DNA of 64,000 nucleotides from Polyangiaceae bacterium (GTDB lineage Bacteria > Myxococcota_A > Polyangia > Polyangiales > Polyangiaceae): NCBI GenBank assembly GCA_020846005.1, contig JADLEQ010000049.1, forward strand, positions 1 through 64,000, written 5' to 3'. Of the stretch, positions 1,813 through 12,091 are shown piece after piece. Under the pieces are notes generated by a model. That model was not told where the DNA came from, did no database searches, and saw only the letters and a program-made list of their open reading frames with translations. How positions within the stretch are numbered: position 1 is the first letter of the stretch; each line of letters begins with the position of its first letter. The position numbers and the translations under genes were made by a program.

Positions 1813-4800
1813 TCAGAGCGCCGCGACGAATTCCCGCCCGAGCTCGAGCGGGTGGGGGCGCGCGGCCGGATCGATCGCCGTAGCCGCTCGGAGAACGCGC
1901 GCCACGCCGGCGGGGAAGGCGCGGAGACGCTCCGGGTCCTCGAAAGGATCGGTGCGCATGTGCGCGATGATCCGGTCCCGTGGGTTCTCGATCTCGTCGA
2001 AGAACGCGCGGCCGGTGGTGACGTTGTAGATCGTGCCGGCGAGCGCGTAGACATCCGCGCGCGGGTCGAGCTCGACCGGATCGAGCACCTGCTCAGGCGC
2101 GATGTAGCCCGCCGTCCCCGCCACGAAGCGGCCGCCCACCTCCGGCGGCACGCGGATCGCGCGCACCATGCCGAAGTCGATCACCACGGAAGAGAGCGGC
2201 GGCACGACCGCCGGATCTCGGTGCTTGTGCGGGTCGAAGCGCTCCCCGCCCGCGAGCGGGAGGCGGAGCCAGATGTTGGCGGGCTTGATGTCCCGATGCA
2301 CGAGGCCGGCGCCATGCAGCGCGGCCAGCCCCGCGCACGACTCGAGCACCACCTGGCGCAGCTCAAAGAGCGTCATCAGCTTCGCCGAGGAGTACTGCTT
2401 GAGGTCGGCGCCGATCAGGTACTCGAGGACGAGGTACGGCATGCCCTCCGAGACGCCCCGATCGATGATGTTGGCGACGTTTGGGTGGTAGAGGCCCGCG
2501 AGCGCCTTGGCCTCCTCGACGAAGGAGGCGATGATGCCCTCGCGCTCCACGTCGGTGGCGCTGGCGAGCGCGTCGGCCTTCGGGATCTTCAGCACGAATA
2601 GCCGATCGGCGCCCGGCTTGCGGACGAGCCACACCGAGCCGATCCCGCCCTCGCCGAGCGCCTTGACGAGCTCGTAGCCCTCGATGAGCTTGGCCTCGCG
2701 CTTGCGCGCCCCAGGCGGCGGCGGCGGTGTCCGGCGCAGCGCTCCGCTCAGGGCCTCCTCCACCAGGCCGGAGGTGACCGGCCCGAGGGATGCGAGCCAC
2801 ACGTCCACCATCGCCAGATCGCGCCCGCGGACGGCGCGCGCGACCAGGCCCGCGACGCGCGGGGCGTTCACGCTCGCGACGCGGGACGGCGGGTCGTCCG
2901 CGTCCGCACCGGCGGGATGGAGCGCCTTCACTGGATCGGCGAGCGCGGCGTGGAGACGATCGGCCGCGTGCACGAGCAGGACGCAGAGCGCGTCCAGCTC
3001 CGGCTTGGGACCCGCCGCCAGCGAGAACTCGGCGAGCGCCGACGCGAGCCCCGCGAGCGCGACCGAGAGCTCGGTCTTGTCTGCGTGGAGGGACGCGAGC
3101 GCGGCCGCGGCGTCGTCGCCCCACGCGCCATCCGGCTCCCCGGAGGCGACCACGGTGCGCAGCACCTCGGCCCGATCGCAGCAGGTGGTGAGCGCCGCCG
3201 GCGACATCATGGGGAGCGCCGTCGTGAGCTTGGTGAGCACCGCGGGTCGATCGATGACGAGGGCCCACCACGCCGCGAACGGCCCGAGCCACTCCACGTC
3301 GTCCACCTCGCCGAGCGCCGTACCTCGCGTGGTGTCGACCACCCGCCAGAAGAGGGACGACAGCGCGCCCTCGAGCGCCGGCGGCAGCTCGCGCGAGCCG
3401 TCGACCAGGCCGTCCAGCTTGCGCAGCCAGAGGCAGGTGTCGTGCGCGGTCGGCCCGCGGCCGGGGCCCAGATCCGTGGCGGCGCCGCACGCGTCGAGCG
3501 CGTAGCCGCCGAGGCGGATGGCGAGGGACTCGAGCTGCACGTCGGCGGCGGGGTCCTCGCTCCCCGCGGCGCGCCGCTGGTTGACGAGATCGAGGATCTC
3601 GGCGGGCACGCGCGAGACCGTCTTCCACGTCTCCTCGAGGCTCGGCTCGGCGAGCGGGGAGCCGTGGGGGCGGGTCGCGAGCAGCGGCGCCCAGAGCCGG
3701 AGCGCGAGCGAGCGCGCGCACCCCTCGAGCGCGTTCATCGCCGCGGCGCGCTCGCGGAGCCGCCCGTCGCCGATCGCCAGCCGGCGCGCCTCCCCGAGCG
3801 CCGTGGACAGGCCCGCCGCGAAGCGCGCCGCCCGCGCGTCCGCCTCCTCGTCGTCGTACTGCGCGGCGACCCGCACCAGGTTCTCGAGGCCGAGCTCGAG
3901 ATCGAGCGGGTCGCGCTCGGCGCCGTCCACCGGGTCCGTGGTGGCGATCACCTCGATCCAACGGCGGGCGTCCTCGACGGACGCGGGCTCGGCGCGCCGC
4001 GCCATCTCGCGCAGGGCGCGGAACGGCCCCTCGATCTCCTCGCGGCCGTAGCCACGGCGAAAGAGCGCCGCGAGCCCTCGGGCGAGCGCGCGCGCGGCGA
4101 CGGCTCCGCCTCCACCAGCGAGCACGCGGGACGCGAGCATGTCCCAGATCGGGCGGCGCTCGAAATAGAGATAGGGGGTCGCCGCCGCGATCGCCGCCAG
4201 GGCCCAGTGCTCGTCGTCGCGCGACTTCAGGATCTGCACGAGCTGGCCGCCGAGCATCCCGAGACGTGAGGCCGGCAGCGACGCGAAGGCGGTGACCGCC
4301 CGCTGCCGCAGCACGAACGAGTCGCCGAGCGCCCAGTCGAGCAGGTTCCCCTCGAGCTGCTCGAGCTGCCCGGTGAGGCGCCCGAGGGCGCGCGCGGCGT
4401 GCACCCAGACGAGCGGCTCGGGATGCAGGAGCAGCGGCTGCAGCACCTGGAGCGTGTCGCCCACGATCTGCGGGTCTGCCGTGGGCGGGAGGCTGCCGAC
4501 GCTGATCTCGAGACAGCGCGCCGCGAGCACGCGGCCCCGGAGCGCCCCACGCGACGGCGTGCGGATCAGGGCGTCGAACGTCGACGGCGAGGAGAACACC
4601 CAATTGCCGAACCCGGGGACCTCGAGCGCGCTCGCGCCCGCCTCCCAGATCAGAATCTCGAGGCGCGCGCGCGCCGTCGAGTTCTCGGGGTAGGAGAGCG
4701 CCACGCCGTCGCCGAGCAGGGGAGCGCAAGGGAGCGCGTCGTGTAGGGGACCGCTGACCACCCGCTCGTGGGCCGCCGCGACCACCCTCGAGTGCCACTG

Positions 4801-5136
4801 CGGATAGGCCGCCGCGATCGCCAGCGCGGGCGTGACGTGGATGTCGCGCCGGCCTGCGGTCGCCGCGAGCCAGATGAGCGCCGGAGCGCCCTCGGGGAGC
4901 GCGAAAACCCGGCCGAGCGCGGCGACCACGTCCTCGGCCTGAGTGACGGCCGGGAGCTCGCGCCGGAGTCGCTCGGCCGCGGCTCGGCGCTCGCCGCCGA
5001 GCGACTCGCCGAGGTGGGTCTGGGCGGCGTGTGGCCCCGCCTGCCAGTAGGCGAAGAGCGCGCTCTCGAAGTCGGGTTCGGCGTCGAGCGCCTCGGTGAG
5101 GAGCGAGAGCGCGTCTTCGGCTTCAGGCGACAGCAT
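1813..5136 (-). CDS. Ser/Thr protein kinase with N-terminal HEAT-like repeats
   Basis: This 1107-aa product has a C-terminal Hanks-type kinase domain over roughly residues 815-1105. The glycine loop GEGGIGSVW, the lysine in FVLKIPK, the catalytic loop HRDIKPANIW and VIDFGMVR are all intact, so an active kinase is expected. About 800 residues before it are Ala/Leu-rich helical repeats that resemble HEAT/Armadillo folds (many AxxALG-type turns). No signal peptide or obvious transmembrane segment was seen, so it is probably cytoplasmic, with the repeat arm recruiting partners. The usual bacterial order is kinase first and sensor last; here it is reversed. It follows the vWA lipoprotein gene on the same strand after 155 bases. 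Substrates cannot be inferred. Confidence 0.9.
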   Translation of the reverse strand: MLSPEAEDALSLLTEALDAEPDFESALFAYWQAGPHAAQTHLGESLGGERRAAAERLRRELPAVTQAEDVVAALGRVFALPEGAPALIWLAATAGRRDIHVTPALAIAAAYPQWHSRVVAAAHERVVSGPLHDALPCAPLLGDGVALSYPENSTARARLEILIWEAGASALEVPGFGNWVFSSPSTFDALIRTPSRGALRGRVLAARCLEISVGSLPPTADPQIVGDTLQVLQPLLLHPEPLVWVHAARALGRLTGQLEQLEGNLLDWALGDSFVLRQRAVTAFASLPASRLGMLGGQLVQILKSRDDEHWALAAIAAATPYLYFERRPIWDMLASRVLAGGGGAVAARALARGLAALFRRGYGREEIEGPFRALREMARRAEPASVEDARRWIEVIATTDPVDGAERDPLDLELGLENLVRVAAQYDDEEADARAARFAAGLSTALGEARRLAIGDGRLRERAAAMNALEGCARSLALRLWAPLLATRPHGSPLAEPSLEETWKTVSRVPAEILDLVNQRRAAGSEDPAADVQLESLAIRLGGYALDACGAATDLGPGRGPTAHDTCLWLRKLDGLVDGSRELPPALEGALSSLFWRVVDTTRGTALGEVDDVEWLGPFAAWWALVIDRPAVLTKLTTALPMMSPAALTTCCDRAEVLRTVVASGEPDGAWGDDAAAALASLHADKTELSVALAGLASALAEFSLAAGPKPELDALCVLLVHAADRLHAALADPVKALHPAGADADDPPSRVASVNAPRVAGLVARAVRGRDLAMVDVWLASLGPVTSGLVEEALSGALRRTPPPPPGARKREAKLIEGYELVKALGEGGIGSVWLVRKPGADRLFVLKIPKADALASATDVEREGIIASFVEEAKALAGLYHPNVANIIDRGVSEGMPYLVLEYLIGADLKQYSSAKLMTLFELRQVVLESCAGLAALHGAGLVHRDIKPANIWLRLPLAGGERFDPHKHRDPAVVPPLSSVVIDFGMVRAIRVPPEVGGRFVAGTAGYIAPEQVLDPVELDPRADVYALAGTIYNVTTGRAFFDEIENPRDRIIAHMRTDPFEDPERLRAFPAGVARVLRAATAIDPAARPHPLELGREFVAAL

Positions 5137-7787: not shown

Positions 7788-9017
7788 TCATGCCAGCGCC
7801 ACGTCCGCCGTTCGCGGGCCGTGGCTCCTCACCCGGACGGGGCGGTCGAGCGCGTCCTCCAGGTGGGCGAGGAGCGCGGCGCGGCGACGGGTGGGGTCGG
7901 CAGGGAGGCCCACCTCACCCGACGAGGCGACGACGCGCCACGGCAGCGGGCGGTCGAGCGCGTCCAGGTGGGTGCAGGCGACGGTGTCCAGGCGCGGGAG
8001 CGCGGCCCGCGCCGCGCCGAGGAGCCCGAGGTCGAGCCAGCCGCGGCGGAAGCGCCCCTGCCAGGGTCCCGCTGCGTTGTGGGGCTCCTCGAGGCACCCG
8101 AGGGCGTCCGTCTCCGTGGGCAGCGGCCCCGCGCCGTGCCGCACGTGGTAGGCGCGGTGCACGCCGATCACCTCGACGTCACGGGCGTCGCCCCACTCGG
8201 CCAGGAGCGCGAGCGCTCGGGCCGGGGTGCAGTCCCCCCAAGTGGTATGGGGTGGGAAGCCGAAGCGCTCGTCGAGCAGGAGCCCCTGGGCTCCCTCGAA
8301 CACCAGCGGGCCGTCTGCGGCGCCCGGGGGCCGCTCGCCCGGCTGGGCGACGCGCACGGGCGCGAGGGCGGCGACGGCGGCCTCGAGCCAGCGCTCCGTC
8401 ACTCCTGGATCGTCGAGCACGCGTCGCTCGAGCGCGAGCGCTCCGCCGGGCGCCCCCGCGAGCGGGAGCGCCGCGGCCTCGGCGCGCTTGCGCTCGCGGA
8501 CCCGCGCGAGCACCCGCGCGGCCTGCGTGCGATCCCGCAGCCGCGCGGGGGTGAGCACCTCGTCGGGGTGGGCGAGCGAGTCGACGACGACCTCGCCGAT
8601 CCCGACGCCGCAGCTCCCATGGCGGGCTGCCCCGCGCGCCAGCTCCCGGAGGCGGTTCAGCGCCTGGTGAAAGGGCGTCACGAGCCGGCAGCGCGCGTCG
8701 ATCGAGAGGCGGTCGAGCGCGTCGAGGACCCCGGTCGCCGCGAGCGCGCGCGCCTCCGCGGCGAGCGCCGTCGGGTGCACGACGACCTCGGGCCCGAGGT
8801 GCGCGCGGACACCGGGCACGAACGTCCCCGCCCCGAGCTGGGAGAAGGTGTGCGCGCGACCGTCGTCGAGCACCACGGTGTGCCCCGCCTGCGCGCCCCC
8901 GTTGAAGCGCACGACGAGCCCGGCCCGAGCGCGCCGCACGAGCCAGTCGACGACGTGCCCCTTGCCGGCGTCGCCGAACCCGAGATCGACGACCGCGAAC
9001 GCCGCGGGAGCGCTCAC
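7788..9017 (-). CDS. Divergent adenylosuccinate-synthetase (PurA)-like enzyme
   Basis: The GTG start overlaps the stop of the vWA gene (GTGA), which decides the start in a frame that stays open far upstream. The 409-aa product carries the PurA signatures. DLGFGDAGKG has the catalytic Asp16 and P-loop-like Lys19. NGGAQAGHTVV has catalytic His46. FEGAQGLLLD, a GRFRRGWLDL phosphate-binding segment and the guanine-recognition-like THLDALD are also present. Differences from housekeeping PurA include GDEGKG changed to GDAGKG, GVGIGEV in place of RGIGP, and a shorter length (409 against about 430). GTP-dependent activation of a carbonyl oxygen on a purine nucleotide, followed by aspartate or another amine addition, is the family reaction; the actual substrate is unknown. 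Its place in a vWA/pseudokinase cassette argues for a specialised paralogue rather than the housekeeping enzyme. Confidence 0.8.
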   Translation of the reverse strand: MSAPAAFAVVDLGFGDAGKGHVVDWLVRRARAGLVVRFNGGAQAGHTVVLDDGRAHTFSQLGAGTFVPGVRAHLGPEVVVHPTALAAEARALAATGVLDALDRLSIDARCRLVTPFHQALNRLRELARGAARHGSCGVGIGEVVVDSLAHPDEVLTPARLRDRTQAARVLARVRERKRAEAAALPLAGAPGGALALERRVLDDPGVTERWLEAAVAALAPVRVAQPGERPPGAADGPLVFEGAQGLLLDERFGFPPHTTWGDCTPARALALLAEWGDARDVEVIGVHRAYHVRHGAGPLPTETDALGCLEEPHNAAGPWQGRFRRGWLDLGLLGAARAALPRLDTVACTHLDALDRPLPWRVVASSGEVGLPADPTRRRAALLAHLEDALDRPVRVRSHGPRTADVALA

Positions 9018-9931
9018 CGCGCGGGGGGCGGCGGGGCGCCATCCCGGTCGAGCGATGCCGCGTACGGCCCGAGCGTACGCACGACCCGCGCCGTGCGCTC
9101 TCGCGTCGCGCCAGCCGCCTCGAGCAACCGCGCCAGCGCGTCGAGATCGCGCGCTACGCCCTCGCCCAGCGCGACGGCGCCTCCCGCCACGTAGCAGGTG
9201 TCCTCGGGCGTCTCCATGCAGATCACGGCGTCGCCCAGCAGATCGCGCCACACGCGCTCGCAGCCGCGCCGGCCCGGATCGGGGATGAGGAAGAACGGAT
9301 GGAAGGTCCGGCGGAGCTCCGCCACGACCTCGAGGGTCGGCACGTCCGCGTCGAGCCGCTCTCCGAGCACCGCCTCCACGTGCTCCTTGGGCAGGGCGGG
9401 CCACGGGGGCTCGTCGCCCGTGACGAAGAGGTAGCCCCTGTGCTTTCGCTTCACCCAGCAGTCCATCTCGGTGTGCGTCGCGAAGAAGTAGAGCGCGAGC
9501 TCGTACGACTCGTACTCGTTGCCGCCCCCACCCTCGAGGTAGATCGAGGTGAGCCAGCGATCCATCAGATCGGCGGTCGACTCGAATTGCCCGACCTGCA
9601 GCGGCGCGCGATCCCAGCCCGCGTTGCCGATGGCGGCGAAGAGCACCTGGGGATCGGGGACCTTGCAGCTCTCGAGCACCTTCATGAAGGAGGGGAGCTC
9701 GCGGCTGGCGAGCAGGCGCGGGATCTCGCCCATCGATCCAGACACGTCGAGCGCGAACACGACGCCGAGCGAGCGCGGGTGGTCCGGCGAGTCCCGCGAC
9801 TCGCGTGCCCGCACGCCCTTCGGGTTCATCAACGGATGGCACGCATCCTGGACGAAGACCTCCGCGCCCTTCGCCGCGCGCTGCGTGACCAGCGCGACGT
9901 GCGCCTCGTGACTGTAATCGCCGAATCCCAT
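9014..9931 (-). CDS. vWA-domain protein of the pseudokinase/PurA-like cassette
   Basis: The ATG start has a GAGGAG ribosome site just upstream. The 305-aa product has no signal peptide and is probably cytoplasmic. A vWA domain spans about residues 50-250, with an intact MIDAS: Asp62, Ser64 and Ser66 in DVSGSM, preceded by hydrophobic GVVFAL. An acidic stretch GYLFVTGDEPPW gives further metal-site candidates. The N-terminal HEAHVALVTQRA segment lies before the fold. It lies between the pseudokinase gene (25-base gap) and the PurA-like gene (4-base overlap), so the three are almost certainly cotranscribed. vWA proteins beside kinases usually act as metal-dependent scaffolds or phosphoprotein partners, as in TerY-P modules; that role here is inference. 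Confidence 0.85.
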   Translation of the reverse strand: MGFGDYSHEAHVALVTQRAAKGAEVFVQDACHPLMNPKGVRARESRDSPDHPRSLGVVFALDVSGSMGEIPRLLASRELPSFMKVLESCKVPDPQVLFAAIGNAGWDRAPLQVGQFESTADLMDRWLTSIYLEGGGGNEYESYELALYFFATHTEMDCWVKRKHRGYLFVTGDEPPWPALPKEHVEAVLGERLDADVPTLEVVAELRRTFHPFFLIPDPGRRGCERVWRDLLGDAVICMETPEDTCYVAGGAVALGEGVARDLDALARLLEAAGATRERTARVVRTLGPYAASLDRDGAPPPPAR

Positions 9932-9956
9932 GACGCTCTCCTCTCGACGGCTGCTC

Positions 9957-10958
9957 TCAACCCCACCCCGGCATGGGGAAGGGCACGAACCGGGGGGGGC
10001 CGAAGCACGCGCGGGCGACCTCGCCCACGCGCTCGCGCAGCGCCCACGCGTCGGCGTGCTCGGCCGGGTGGCGCACCACCTCAGTGACGAGCGCGGCCAT
10101 CGCCGCGGGCACCTCGGCCCCGTCCATCACCTGCGCGACCGCCAGCGCGGCCGCCCGCGCGTCCGCCGCGCGCGCCTCGGGGGTCGCGGGGGCCGCGGCC
10201 CCCCACGCGACCGGCAGCACCCCATGATCCTTCGCGTGCACGAGCAGGTGCGCCGCCTCGAGGGCGCCATGCGCCCAGCCGGCTGCGTGCGCGAACGCGA
10301 GCGACTCCAGGACCCGGCGCCACATCCACGCCACGTGCTCGGCGAGGACGCCTCCCGGGTAGTGCTCCCGCACGTCGACGAGGGTGTGGACGAAGCCCGC
10401 GCACCAGCGCAGGACGAGCGCGCTGCGGCCCTCGAGCGGTGACGCCGCGCCCGCCACGACGCCGGCACCGACGACGGCGGGGAGCCGGCGGGCGTGGTGG
10501 TGCGCGCCGGGCGCCTCCGACGCGACGAGCGCCTCGAGCACTCGCTGTTCGTGCTGGAGGCGCTGGGCCGCGACCGCGTCCGCGCCGGCCGCGAGCACCT
10601 TCACCACCACCCGCTCGGTGGGATCTCGCGCGAGCGTCGCCGCCCACACCTCACAGCGGCGCCCGACCCCGATCCGCCGGCCGATCGCCCACGGCCGGTC
10701 CGCGATCCAGACGCAGCGCTCCGCCCCGTGGGCGCGCGTCGCGCCCTCGTCCCACGCGCGGAGCGCCCGAGCGAACCGAGCGCGCGGCACCGCCGCCTCG
10801 TCGACGAAGACCGTCGCCCCGCAGTGGTCGCACACCGCCTCGCGCTGGAAGCGCGTGACGGTGAGGGGCGCCCCGCACCGGCTGCACTCGGCCGTGAACG
10901 TACGCCGGGGCGCGGCGTCGCCCTGCGGGTGTTGCTCTCCGTCGTCCGCGCTTCCCAA
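9957..10958 (-). CDS. Zinc-ribbon pseudokinase
   Basis: The product has 333 aa from a TTG start; an AAGGAG site four bases upstream and the lack of any ATG/GTG before the first domain support it. Residues 25-48 form a zinc ribbon (Cys25, Cys28, Cys43, Cys46). A protein-kinase-like fold follows. Lys120 in VVVKVL matches the ATP-binding lysine and Glu137 could be the helix-C glutamate. The catalytic HRD is replaced by HGA (230-232), and the DFG region reads AWG (251-253), so both key Asp residues are missing. It is therefore predicted to be a catalytically dead kinase used for binding. It is first in the cassette with the vWA and PurA-like genes and lies 126 bases after a methyltransferase gene. 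Confidence 0.75.
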   Translation of the reverse strand: MGSADDGEQHPQGDAAPRRTFTAECSRCGAPLTVTRFQREAVCDHCGATVFVDEAAVPRARFARALRAWDEGATRAHGAERCVWIADRPWAIGRRIGVGRRCEVWAATLARDPTERVVVKVLAAGADAVAAQRLQHEQRVLEALVASEAPGAHHHARRLPAVVGAGVVAGAASPLEGRSALVLRWCAGFVHTLVDVREHYPGGVLAEHVAWMWRRVLESLAFAHAAGWAHGALEAAHLLVHAKDHGVLPVAWGAAAPATPEARAADARAAALAVAQVMDGAEVPAAMAALVTEVVRHPAEHADAWALRERVGEVARACFGPPRFVPFPMPGWG

Positions 10959-11084: not shown

Positions 11085-12014
11085 TCACCGCGCCGGCGCG
11101 TCGAGCGCCGCGAGCTCCGGGATGGCTCGGCAGGCGAGCGCGAAGTACTCGGGATCGAGCTCGAGGCCGATGCTCGCGTAGCCGAGGTGCTCCGCCGCCG
11201 CGACGGTGGAGCCGCCTCCCAGGAACGGATCCAGGACCACGCCCTCGCCGAAAGGGAGGGCCGCGCGCACGAGGCGGCGCACGAACGCCTGCGGCTTGAG
11301 CGACGGATGGTCCGCCAGGCGCCGCTCTGCCGGGCGCGTCGGGCCGCACGGGATCACGTCGGTGAACGGGCGCGCGGGCGACTCGCGCCGGAGGCCGCCC
11401 GTGCCCCACCGATGCAGGTTGTCGCGCACGGTCCCCTGGCAGGGCTTACGGAAGAGCCCCCAAGGTTCCCACGCGGAGCGCGGCATCACCGTCACGTCGG
11501 CCAGCTCTTGGTGCGCGTTCTTCGGGCGGTCGCCGCCGCGCAGCGTCTGCACGAGGCGGACGATCTCGCCCCGCTTCTCGAACCCGGCCTCGACGAGCGG
11601 GACCTGCACCAGGTGCGAGACGAGCGGGTTGCCCGCCACGAAGACGTGCGCGCCCGGCACGAGGACGCGCAGGAGCCGGCGAGCCCACTCGGCGAAATGC
11701 TCGGCCATCGCGCGGCGCTCGGCGGGCGTGAGCGTCGTGAACCGCGGGACGGGGCGGCGCACGTGCCCGCCGAGCGCCGGCGGGATGCGCCACACCCCCC
11801 CGCGCCCCGCCCGGAGCTTGCCGAGCTCGCGCTCACCGTACTCCCGCACGCCGTACGGGGGGTCGGTCACGACGGCGTGGATCGAGCACGGCTCGCGCGC
11901 CGCCAGCCAGTCGAGGCAGTCGACCTGCACGAGCTCGGCGCGCCCGACCCGCACGCTCCGAGGCGCACCGCCGCGAGCGCGCGCGGCCGGAGCGGGGGCG
12001 TCACGGCTCGTCAT
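11085..12014 (-). CDS. Orphan amino-DNA methyltransferase (DPPY type)
   Basis: The start is the ATG of MTSRDAPAP; an in-frame upstream start would add 14 residues of poor character. The 309-aa product contains motif IV VVTDPPYGV near residue 60. Motif I (VLDPFLGGGSTVAAA) lies near the C-terminus, the order seen in beta-class N6-adenine or N4-cytosine methyltransferases. KPQAFVRRLVRAA precedes motif I as expected. No restriction endonuclease or specificity gene is next to it, so it looks solitary: it may regulate transcription or mark DNA rather than defend. It is followed on the same strand by the pseudokinase cassette after 126 bases and preceded by a DUF4156 lipoprotein gene. Confidence 0.85.
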   Translation of the reverse strand: MTSRDAPAPAARARGGAPRSVRVGRAELVQVDCLDWLAAREPCSIHAVVTDPPYGVREYGERELGKLRAGRGGVWRIPPALGGHVRRPVPRFTTLTPAERRAMAEHFAEWARRLLRVLVPGAHVFVAGNPLVSHLVQVPLVEAGFEKRGEIVRLVQTLRGGDRPKNAHQELADVTVMPRSAWEPWGLFRKPCQGTVRDNLHRWGTGGLRRESPARPFTDVIPCGPTRPAERRLADHPSLKPQAFVRRLVRAALPFGEGVVLDPFLGGGSTVAAAEHLGYASIGLELDPEYFALACRAIPELAALDAPAR

Positions 12015-12091
12015 GGGTGTGGAGCGTACTCGCGCTTCTGCCCACCCTCCGACCACGGCTCCGGCTCAGCTCGCCTTCTCCGCGCGGGCGC

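Follow-up and report, generated by a model that had tools for sequence, protein, structure and literature searches.

The first 64,000 nucleotides of contig JADLEQ010000049.1 from a Polyangiaceae bacterium (GenBank assembly GCA_020846005.1), hereafter the window, carry three adjacent minus-strand genes that encode a zinc-ribbon pseudokinase, a von Willebrand factor type A (vWA) protein and a divergent relative of the adenylosuccinate synthetase PurA. It is close to certain that the three genes form one functional unit, as their order and adjacency recur far above chance. The third gene represents a new subfamily of PurA whose gene context is new as well, and its product is likely to be an enzyme with changed specificity. 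The pseudokinase gene spans positions 9957 to 10958 (333 residues; TTG start at 10958, with AAGGAG upstream), the vWA gene 9014 to 9931 (305 residues; GAGAGGAGAG upstream of the start) and the PurA-like gene 7788 to 9017 (409 residues; GTG start at 9017, stop ending at 7788). The stop of the first lies 25 bp from the start of the second, and the last two overlap by 4 nt, GTGA at 9014-9017, which holds both the PurA-like start and the vWA stop. These open reading frame coordinates confirm the layout described in an original prediction made from the DNA sequence, that of three neighboring genes on one strand with two of them joined by a 4-base overlap.

To choose loci for comparison, a profile built from only the vWA protein was used; it matched at least 574 relatives in a collection of bacterial and archaeal species and 309 in viral contigs of IMG/VR. 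The sample consisted of the best 78 bacterial loci of those at least 574 and the best 80 viral loci of the 309; 73 bacterial loci (plasmid loci included) and 49 viral loci had enough flanking sequence. All three genes are found in 69 of the 73 bacterial loci and are contiguous in the order kinase, vWA, PurA in 64, with median hit-to-hit gaps of 41 and 82 bp. A contiguous, ordered triad in 64 of 73 loci sampled through only one of its genes is far more than chance would give, and the ordered co-occurrence on which the original prediction depended is present in other genomes. Full triads cover 48 genus-level groups in the Myxococcota, Pseudomonadota, Chloroflexota, Acidobacteriota, Verrucomicrobiota, Planctomycetota, Fibrobacterota and Actinomycetota, and plasmid-borne triads occur in Variovorax, Rhodococcus, Agrobacterium, Rhizobium and Acetobacter. 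The full triad is present in 25 of the 49 viral loci, most of the rest having vWA and PurA, and it also appears in C1 mycobacteriophages (e.g. Gizmo genes 267-270). Even draws of genomes place the vWA gene in about 9% of the class of Actinomadura (28/297), 11% of the phylum of the window organism (32/284, a count that includes a paralogue in part) and 1.5% of the class to which locus L019 belongs (4/274). Representatives of hundreds of bacterial species and over 300 viral contigs carry the module, which has neither a name nor an assigned function in the literature searched. No description of the triad was found in that literature, which leaves most subscription journals outside its coverage, so an earlier description is possible.

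The PurA-like protein matches Pfam model PF00709 with an E-value of 3e-55, yet it scores 150 bits against 402 for the adenylosuccinate synthase equivalogs and falls far under every curated cut-off, so it was rightly called divergent. We aligned 140 non-redundant triad members with E. coli PurA, whose reference row equals PDB 1KJX except for a single residue close to the C-terminus that is not among the sites compared. Hardly any member departs from D13, K16, H41 or Q224, and 138 of 140 keep D333; D13 and K16 lie in the GTP/catalytic loop, GFGDAGKG in the window protein (8958 to 8981, minus strand). Other positions have changed with similar consistency. N38 is replaced by Gln in 137 members, T301 by Gln in all 140, T129 by Cys or Val, and R305 by a hydrophobic residue. 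V273, beside the ribose, is His in every member (His294 in the window protein, 8136 to 8138, minus strand). R303, which in PurA contacts aspartate and the 2'-O of inosine monophosphate (IMP) (PMC8342488), is not conserved. The aspartate-binding loop of PurA that contains T300, T301 and R303, TTGRRRRTGWLD, gives way to [WFY]QG with one residue deleted, seen in the window protein as WQGRFRRGWLD (8031 to 8063, minus strand). The R143 column is not conserved either, although an Arg often stands four residues off, which makes this point a weak one. Read directly from the alignment, on which all of the active-site argument depends, the pattern suggests an enzyme that still activates a 6-oxopurine with GTP but has changed its L-aspartate partner and its recognition of the ribose-phosphate.

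In a midpoint-rooted tree of 65 rows, the triad PurA-like proteins of bacteria and phages form one clade with support 100/100, apart from both canonical PurA and PurZ. A second, canonical PurA is encoded in 30 of 31 triad genomes, the exception being a Chloroflexi metagenome-assembled genome, and a separate canonical copy is present in the window's own genome. The view of the gene as a paralogue standing beside a normal PurA, rather than the sole PurA of its genome, therefore held. The triad proteins are a clear new subfamily of PurA, and because their loss of aspartate use is predictable, the substrate is open to direct test.

The first two proteins were modeled because sequence alone hardly supports their identities: the window kinase is weak in both Pfam (0.04) and PADLOC (9e-8), and the window vWA protein has no Pfam vWA match. 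Both models were built from alignments of locus-derived relatives. The model of the kinase-like protein has a predicted local distance difference test (pLDDT) score of 91 and finds Mycobacterium tuberculosis PknB as its top structural match (E-value 1e-8, probability 1.00); phage relatives pass the Pfam Pkinase model. In the window protein HRD reads HGA and DFG reads AWG, within a degenerate segment HGALEAAHLLVHAKDHGVLPVAW (10203 to 10271, minus strand), so the label of pseudokinase is right for it. It has the fold and the VAIK lysine of an active Ser/Thr kinase but neither the HRD nor the DFG aspartate. Family members retain the VAIK lysine in 58 of 65 bacterial and 27 of 30 phage sequences, whereas Asp appears at the HRD position in 16 of 65 and 0 of 30, and at DFG in 10 of 65 and 10 of 30. 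The kinase fold of this family has mostly lost its catalytic aspartates, and the histidine of a DHG motif in the same segment is invariant.

The N-terminal region of the pseudokinase comes in two forms. CxxC-x14-CxxC at residues 25-46 of the window protein (Cys25, 28, 43 and 46; 10821 to 10886, minus strand) fits a zinc ribbon, with weak Pfam zinc-ribbon matches, and most bacterial loci have such a ribbon. Actinomycetes, alphaproteobacteria and many phages have instead a J-domain-like segment with HPD, for which Pfam DnaJ matches are below cut-off yet correctly placed. Plain tblastn with the window kinase returned no phage relatives; the phage kinases surface with profiles only. Candidate triad kinases encoded upstream in Rhizobium and Vibrio phages were rejected, since these genes encode a different protein. 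Elsewhere in the window, positions 1813-5136 (minus strand) encode a 1107-residue protein with an apparently intact C-terminal Ser/Thr kinase domain (HRDIKPAN, DFG).

The AlphaFold model of the second protein, also with a pLDDT of 91, has structural matches to the integrin beta-I, TFIIH p34 and VWF A3 domains (E-value 8e-7 and weaker). Motifs DVSGS (9734 to 9748, minus strand, in the window) and TGD, which resemble a metal-ion-dependent adhesion site (MIDAS), are nearly invariant in the family, and D62, G65, S66 and D173 are retained throughout. With the Rossmann-like fold taken from the model and DxSxS present in the sequence, the protein is predicted to have the vWA fold with a MIDAS-like site, in agreement with the original prediction. 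Two vWA genes are common in myxobacterial and related triads (L033, L047, L053, L059, L064, L065, L071, L074, L078), the second copy sitting beside the first or one copy on each side of PurA. A vWA paralogue, about 24% identical, occurs in Myxococcota relatives of the window organism (L187:6163-10467, L188, L189); its gene is flanked by genes for a nicotinamide mononucleotide (NMN) adenylyltransferase-like protein, a pyruvate-kinase-like protein and NadE, in NMNAT-vWA-NadE clusters. A coiled-coil-like protein of about 134 residues is encoded directly 5' of the vWA gene in 27 viral loci (e.g. L104:6597-6998). A TROVE (Ro60-like) protein is encoded in L010 (10392-11900, Pfam 1e-17) and, as there, within about 3 kb of vWA-PurA in nine more viral loci (L095, L101, L102, L118, L121, L124, L125, L137, L158); such proximity in large phages hints at an RNA-related context. 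ARAGORN calls a tRNA-Glu (CTC) at 9103-9175 (minus strand) of the window, within the vWA coding sequence and on the same strand, that is probably spurious.

The triad is frequently coupled to an NrtR-type regulator, which combines a Nudix domain with a winged helix, and sometimes to genes for the synthesis of nicotinamide adenine dinucleotide (NAD). Genes for a PncA-like protein, PncB, NadE and NadM-Nudix form a string that ends with the triad in Rhodocyclaceae (L019) and Accumulibacter (L032), where nrtR is oriented divergently. In a third proteobacterial lineage (L079), PncA-like, PncB and NadE precede the triad, NadE lying 33 bp ahead of the kinase gene; no NadM was found in this string. 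The name PncA-like reflects sequence resemblance, there being no Pfam match at 0.001. In many other groups, too, the triad has a Nudix gene next to it, which may be upstream, divergent or downstream, and 14 of 17 triad-adjacent Nudix proteins scanned exceed the cut-off for NrtR_WHD; the NrtR winged helix is found also in the regulators of L019 and of phage locus L108. Among 37 triad genomes, 33 copies of NrtR_WHD were counted, 10 of them within 10 kb of a triad where about 0.1 would be expected by chance. These genomes were chosen after the NrtR link was noticed, and an even draw of actinomycete genomes serves as the fairer test: a Nudix/NrtR regulator adjoins 22 of its 23 triads with adequate flanks. 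In phages, a 512-kb contig (L108) has the gene order NrtR-NadV-vWA-PurA-kinase, L104 has NadM and NadV nearby, and L120 has a NadV-like match.

The Nudix box (GX5EX7REUXEEXGU) is intact in triad-adjacent regulators from Streptosporangiaceae (e.g. L080:7039-7788), so that some of these may also hydrolyze a nucleotide, and is degenerate in the proteobacterial regulators. L008, L012 and L291 (L263 represents the same place as L291) share a palindrome-like element, TTGYWACTTGCAWWWWRCAA, in the interval that separates nrtR from the kinase gene; it is absent elsewhere in the collected loci and was derived from those same sites, which makes it a lead only. In the window, a gene for an N6/N4 DNA methylase (PF01555, 4e-16; 11085-12056, minus strand) lies immediately upstream of the pseudokinase gene on the same strand; it is not among the recurrent neighbors of the collected triad loci.

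We tentatively propose, as a scheme somewhat short of even odds, that the PurA-like protein is a GTP-dependent ligase that joins a 6-oxopurine nucleotide to a partner other than aspartate, controlled by the vWA protein and the pseudokinase and serving NAD- or ADP-ribose-linked metabolism. The enzyme would use GTP to phosphorylate O6 of the nucleotide, and the phosphate would be displaced by an amine other than free L-aspartate. Holding, loading or gating of the enzyme or of its target would fall to the vWA protein, by means of its metal site, and to the pseudokinase with its zinc-ribbon or J-like head; we judge the chances of these roles evenly balanced. A role of the product in NAD- or ADP-ribose-linked metabolism has moderate support from the gene neighborhoods and is more probable than not. 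NrtR regulators sense ADP-ribose (PMC9503650), and in many lineages, the window's own genome not among them, NrtR would respond to an ADP-ribose-like signal and the operon would be switched on. A bolder version, which we consider doubtful, is a previously unknown branch of NAD/ADP-ribose metabolism, carried by large phages too, in which a GTP-dependent PurA-type ligase under the control of a vWA protein and a pseudokinase would produce or mend a dinucleotide with a modified purine, acting for instance on NAD or ADP-ribose in a hypoxanthine form. If the NAD link is true, the triad would contribute to NAD biology an enzyme step that phages share, and NAD is one of the main things over which phages and bacteria now contend. 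The original prediction contained neither the link to NrtR and NAD nor the J-domain form of the pseudokinase, the presence in phages or the altered aspartate site.

Several observations weigh against this proposal. NadV occurs in 4 of 36 triad phages, not above background for phages of such size, as it is found in 22-33% of phages of comparable size (PMC9503650), and the NAD link in phages therefore rests on few loci (L108, L104, L120). The window's own genome has no NrtR, and triads of Myxococcota, Chloroflexi and Variovorax show no NAD neighbors; the link may therefore be regulatory and lineage-specific. Members of the NrtR family can also control other things, as AraR does arabinose use (PMC4666351). 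Many phages carry vWA and PurA alone, close together, and the HRD aspartate persists in the minority of bacterial kinases counted above.

Rival accounts of the PurA-like protein differ in how much of the enzyme they keep. The least credible makes it an ordinary PurA, a spare or condition-specific adenylosuccinate synthetase: it has the PF00709 match and the retained GTP site in its favor, but a canonical PurA is already present in nearly all triad genomes and in that of the window, the aspartate loop and R303 are lost, V273 is His throughout, and no PurB-like gene is among the recurrent neighbors. Only slightly better is a PurZ-like enzyme producing a modified purine nucleotide for DNA, an idea raised by the original prediction that did not survive comparison. 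Many large phages carry the family, its fold is that of PurA, and phage triad members are labeled "2-aminooxy adenylosuccinate synthetase" on the basis of phrog_1211 (e.g. NC_031080.1, NC_070967.1 and C1 mycobacteriophages). That label is unsupported by residues or tree. PurZ has Ser at D13, where all triad members keep Asp; it retains N38, T129 and V273, all altered in the triad family; and it groups with canonical PurA, outside the triad clade. The score is 64 bits against an NCBIfam PurZ cut-off of 300, the partners DatZ, MazZ and polymerase are not seen among recurrent neighbors, and the triad is common in bacterial chromosomes. A widespread label is corrected here, in that the C1 mycobacteriophage genes that bear it are, by both residues and tree, not PurZ. 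A non-enzymatic role, as a GTP or purine sensor or a scaffold subunit of a vWA-pseudokinase complex, deserves more weight than either of these and is still improbable; the partners look regulatory or scaffold-like and the substrate-site residues are heavily altered, but D13, H41, K16 and Q224 are near-invariant across 140 diverse sequences, and a pure scaffold would not need them.

A different rival concerns the module as a whole. TerY-P triads combine a vWA protein, a PP2C phosphatase and a kinase in one operon, and the original prediction drew on them to suggest a stress or conflict module, in which a switch of vWA and kinase signaling governs an enzyme effector. We find this unlikely, though marginally less so than the sensor or scaffold. 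A vWA protein and a kinase do sit beside an enzyme, on plasmids and in phages as well, the triad kinase weakly resembles the PADLOC kinases PD-T4-6 and MkoA, and vWA proteins are predicted to be peptide-binding chaperones in conflict systems (PMC9503650). The analogy fails, however, at the phosphatase, since no PP2C gene lies beside the window triad or among recurrent neighbors, and the kinase has mostly lost its catalytic aspartates. No PADLOC system matches the set, its kinase similarity aside, and some triads lie within NAD-synthesis operons, a housekeeping-like setting.

Compared with known systems, the triad shares parts with each. The PurA-like protein resembles PurA (PF00709; E. coli 1ADE/1CG0) in its fold, its GTP loop, the residues D13, K16, H41 and Q224 and the guanine-site D333. 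It differs in having [WFY]QGx for the PurA loop TTGRRR, in the substitutions at N38, T129 and V273 and the unconserved R143 and R303, in the vWA gene alongside and in its separate clade. PurZ of phages S-2L and phiVC8, which uses deoxyguanosine monophosphate (dGMP) and aspartate (PMC8342488), is likewise a PurA-fold paralogue in phages; besides the sequence differences given above, its gene partners are others. The likeness to TerY-P is a vWA gene adjoining one for a kinase-fold protein; the triad has no phosphatase, its kinase is a pseudokinase, and its third gene is PurA-like. The ARG-centred systems that counter ADP-ribosylation, which include Nudix/WYL regulators and vWA chaperones (PMC9503650, section 3.8), share the NrtR-type Nudix-helix-turn-helix regulator and a vWA protein in the neighborhood. 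As described, they include neither a PurA-like protein nor a pseudokinase, and their ADP-ribosylglycohydrolase and linked phosphatase were not seen among the recurrent neighbors of the triad. With NrtR-regulated NAD operons, the gene strings of L019 and L032 have in common the regulator, PncA-like protein, PncB, NadE and NadM, to which the triad genes are extra, with no mention of them found in the literature searched. The combination of a PurA-like protein, a vWA protein and a pseudokinase is without known counterpart among the systems compared.

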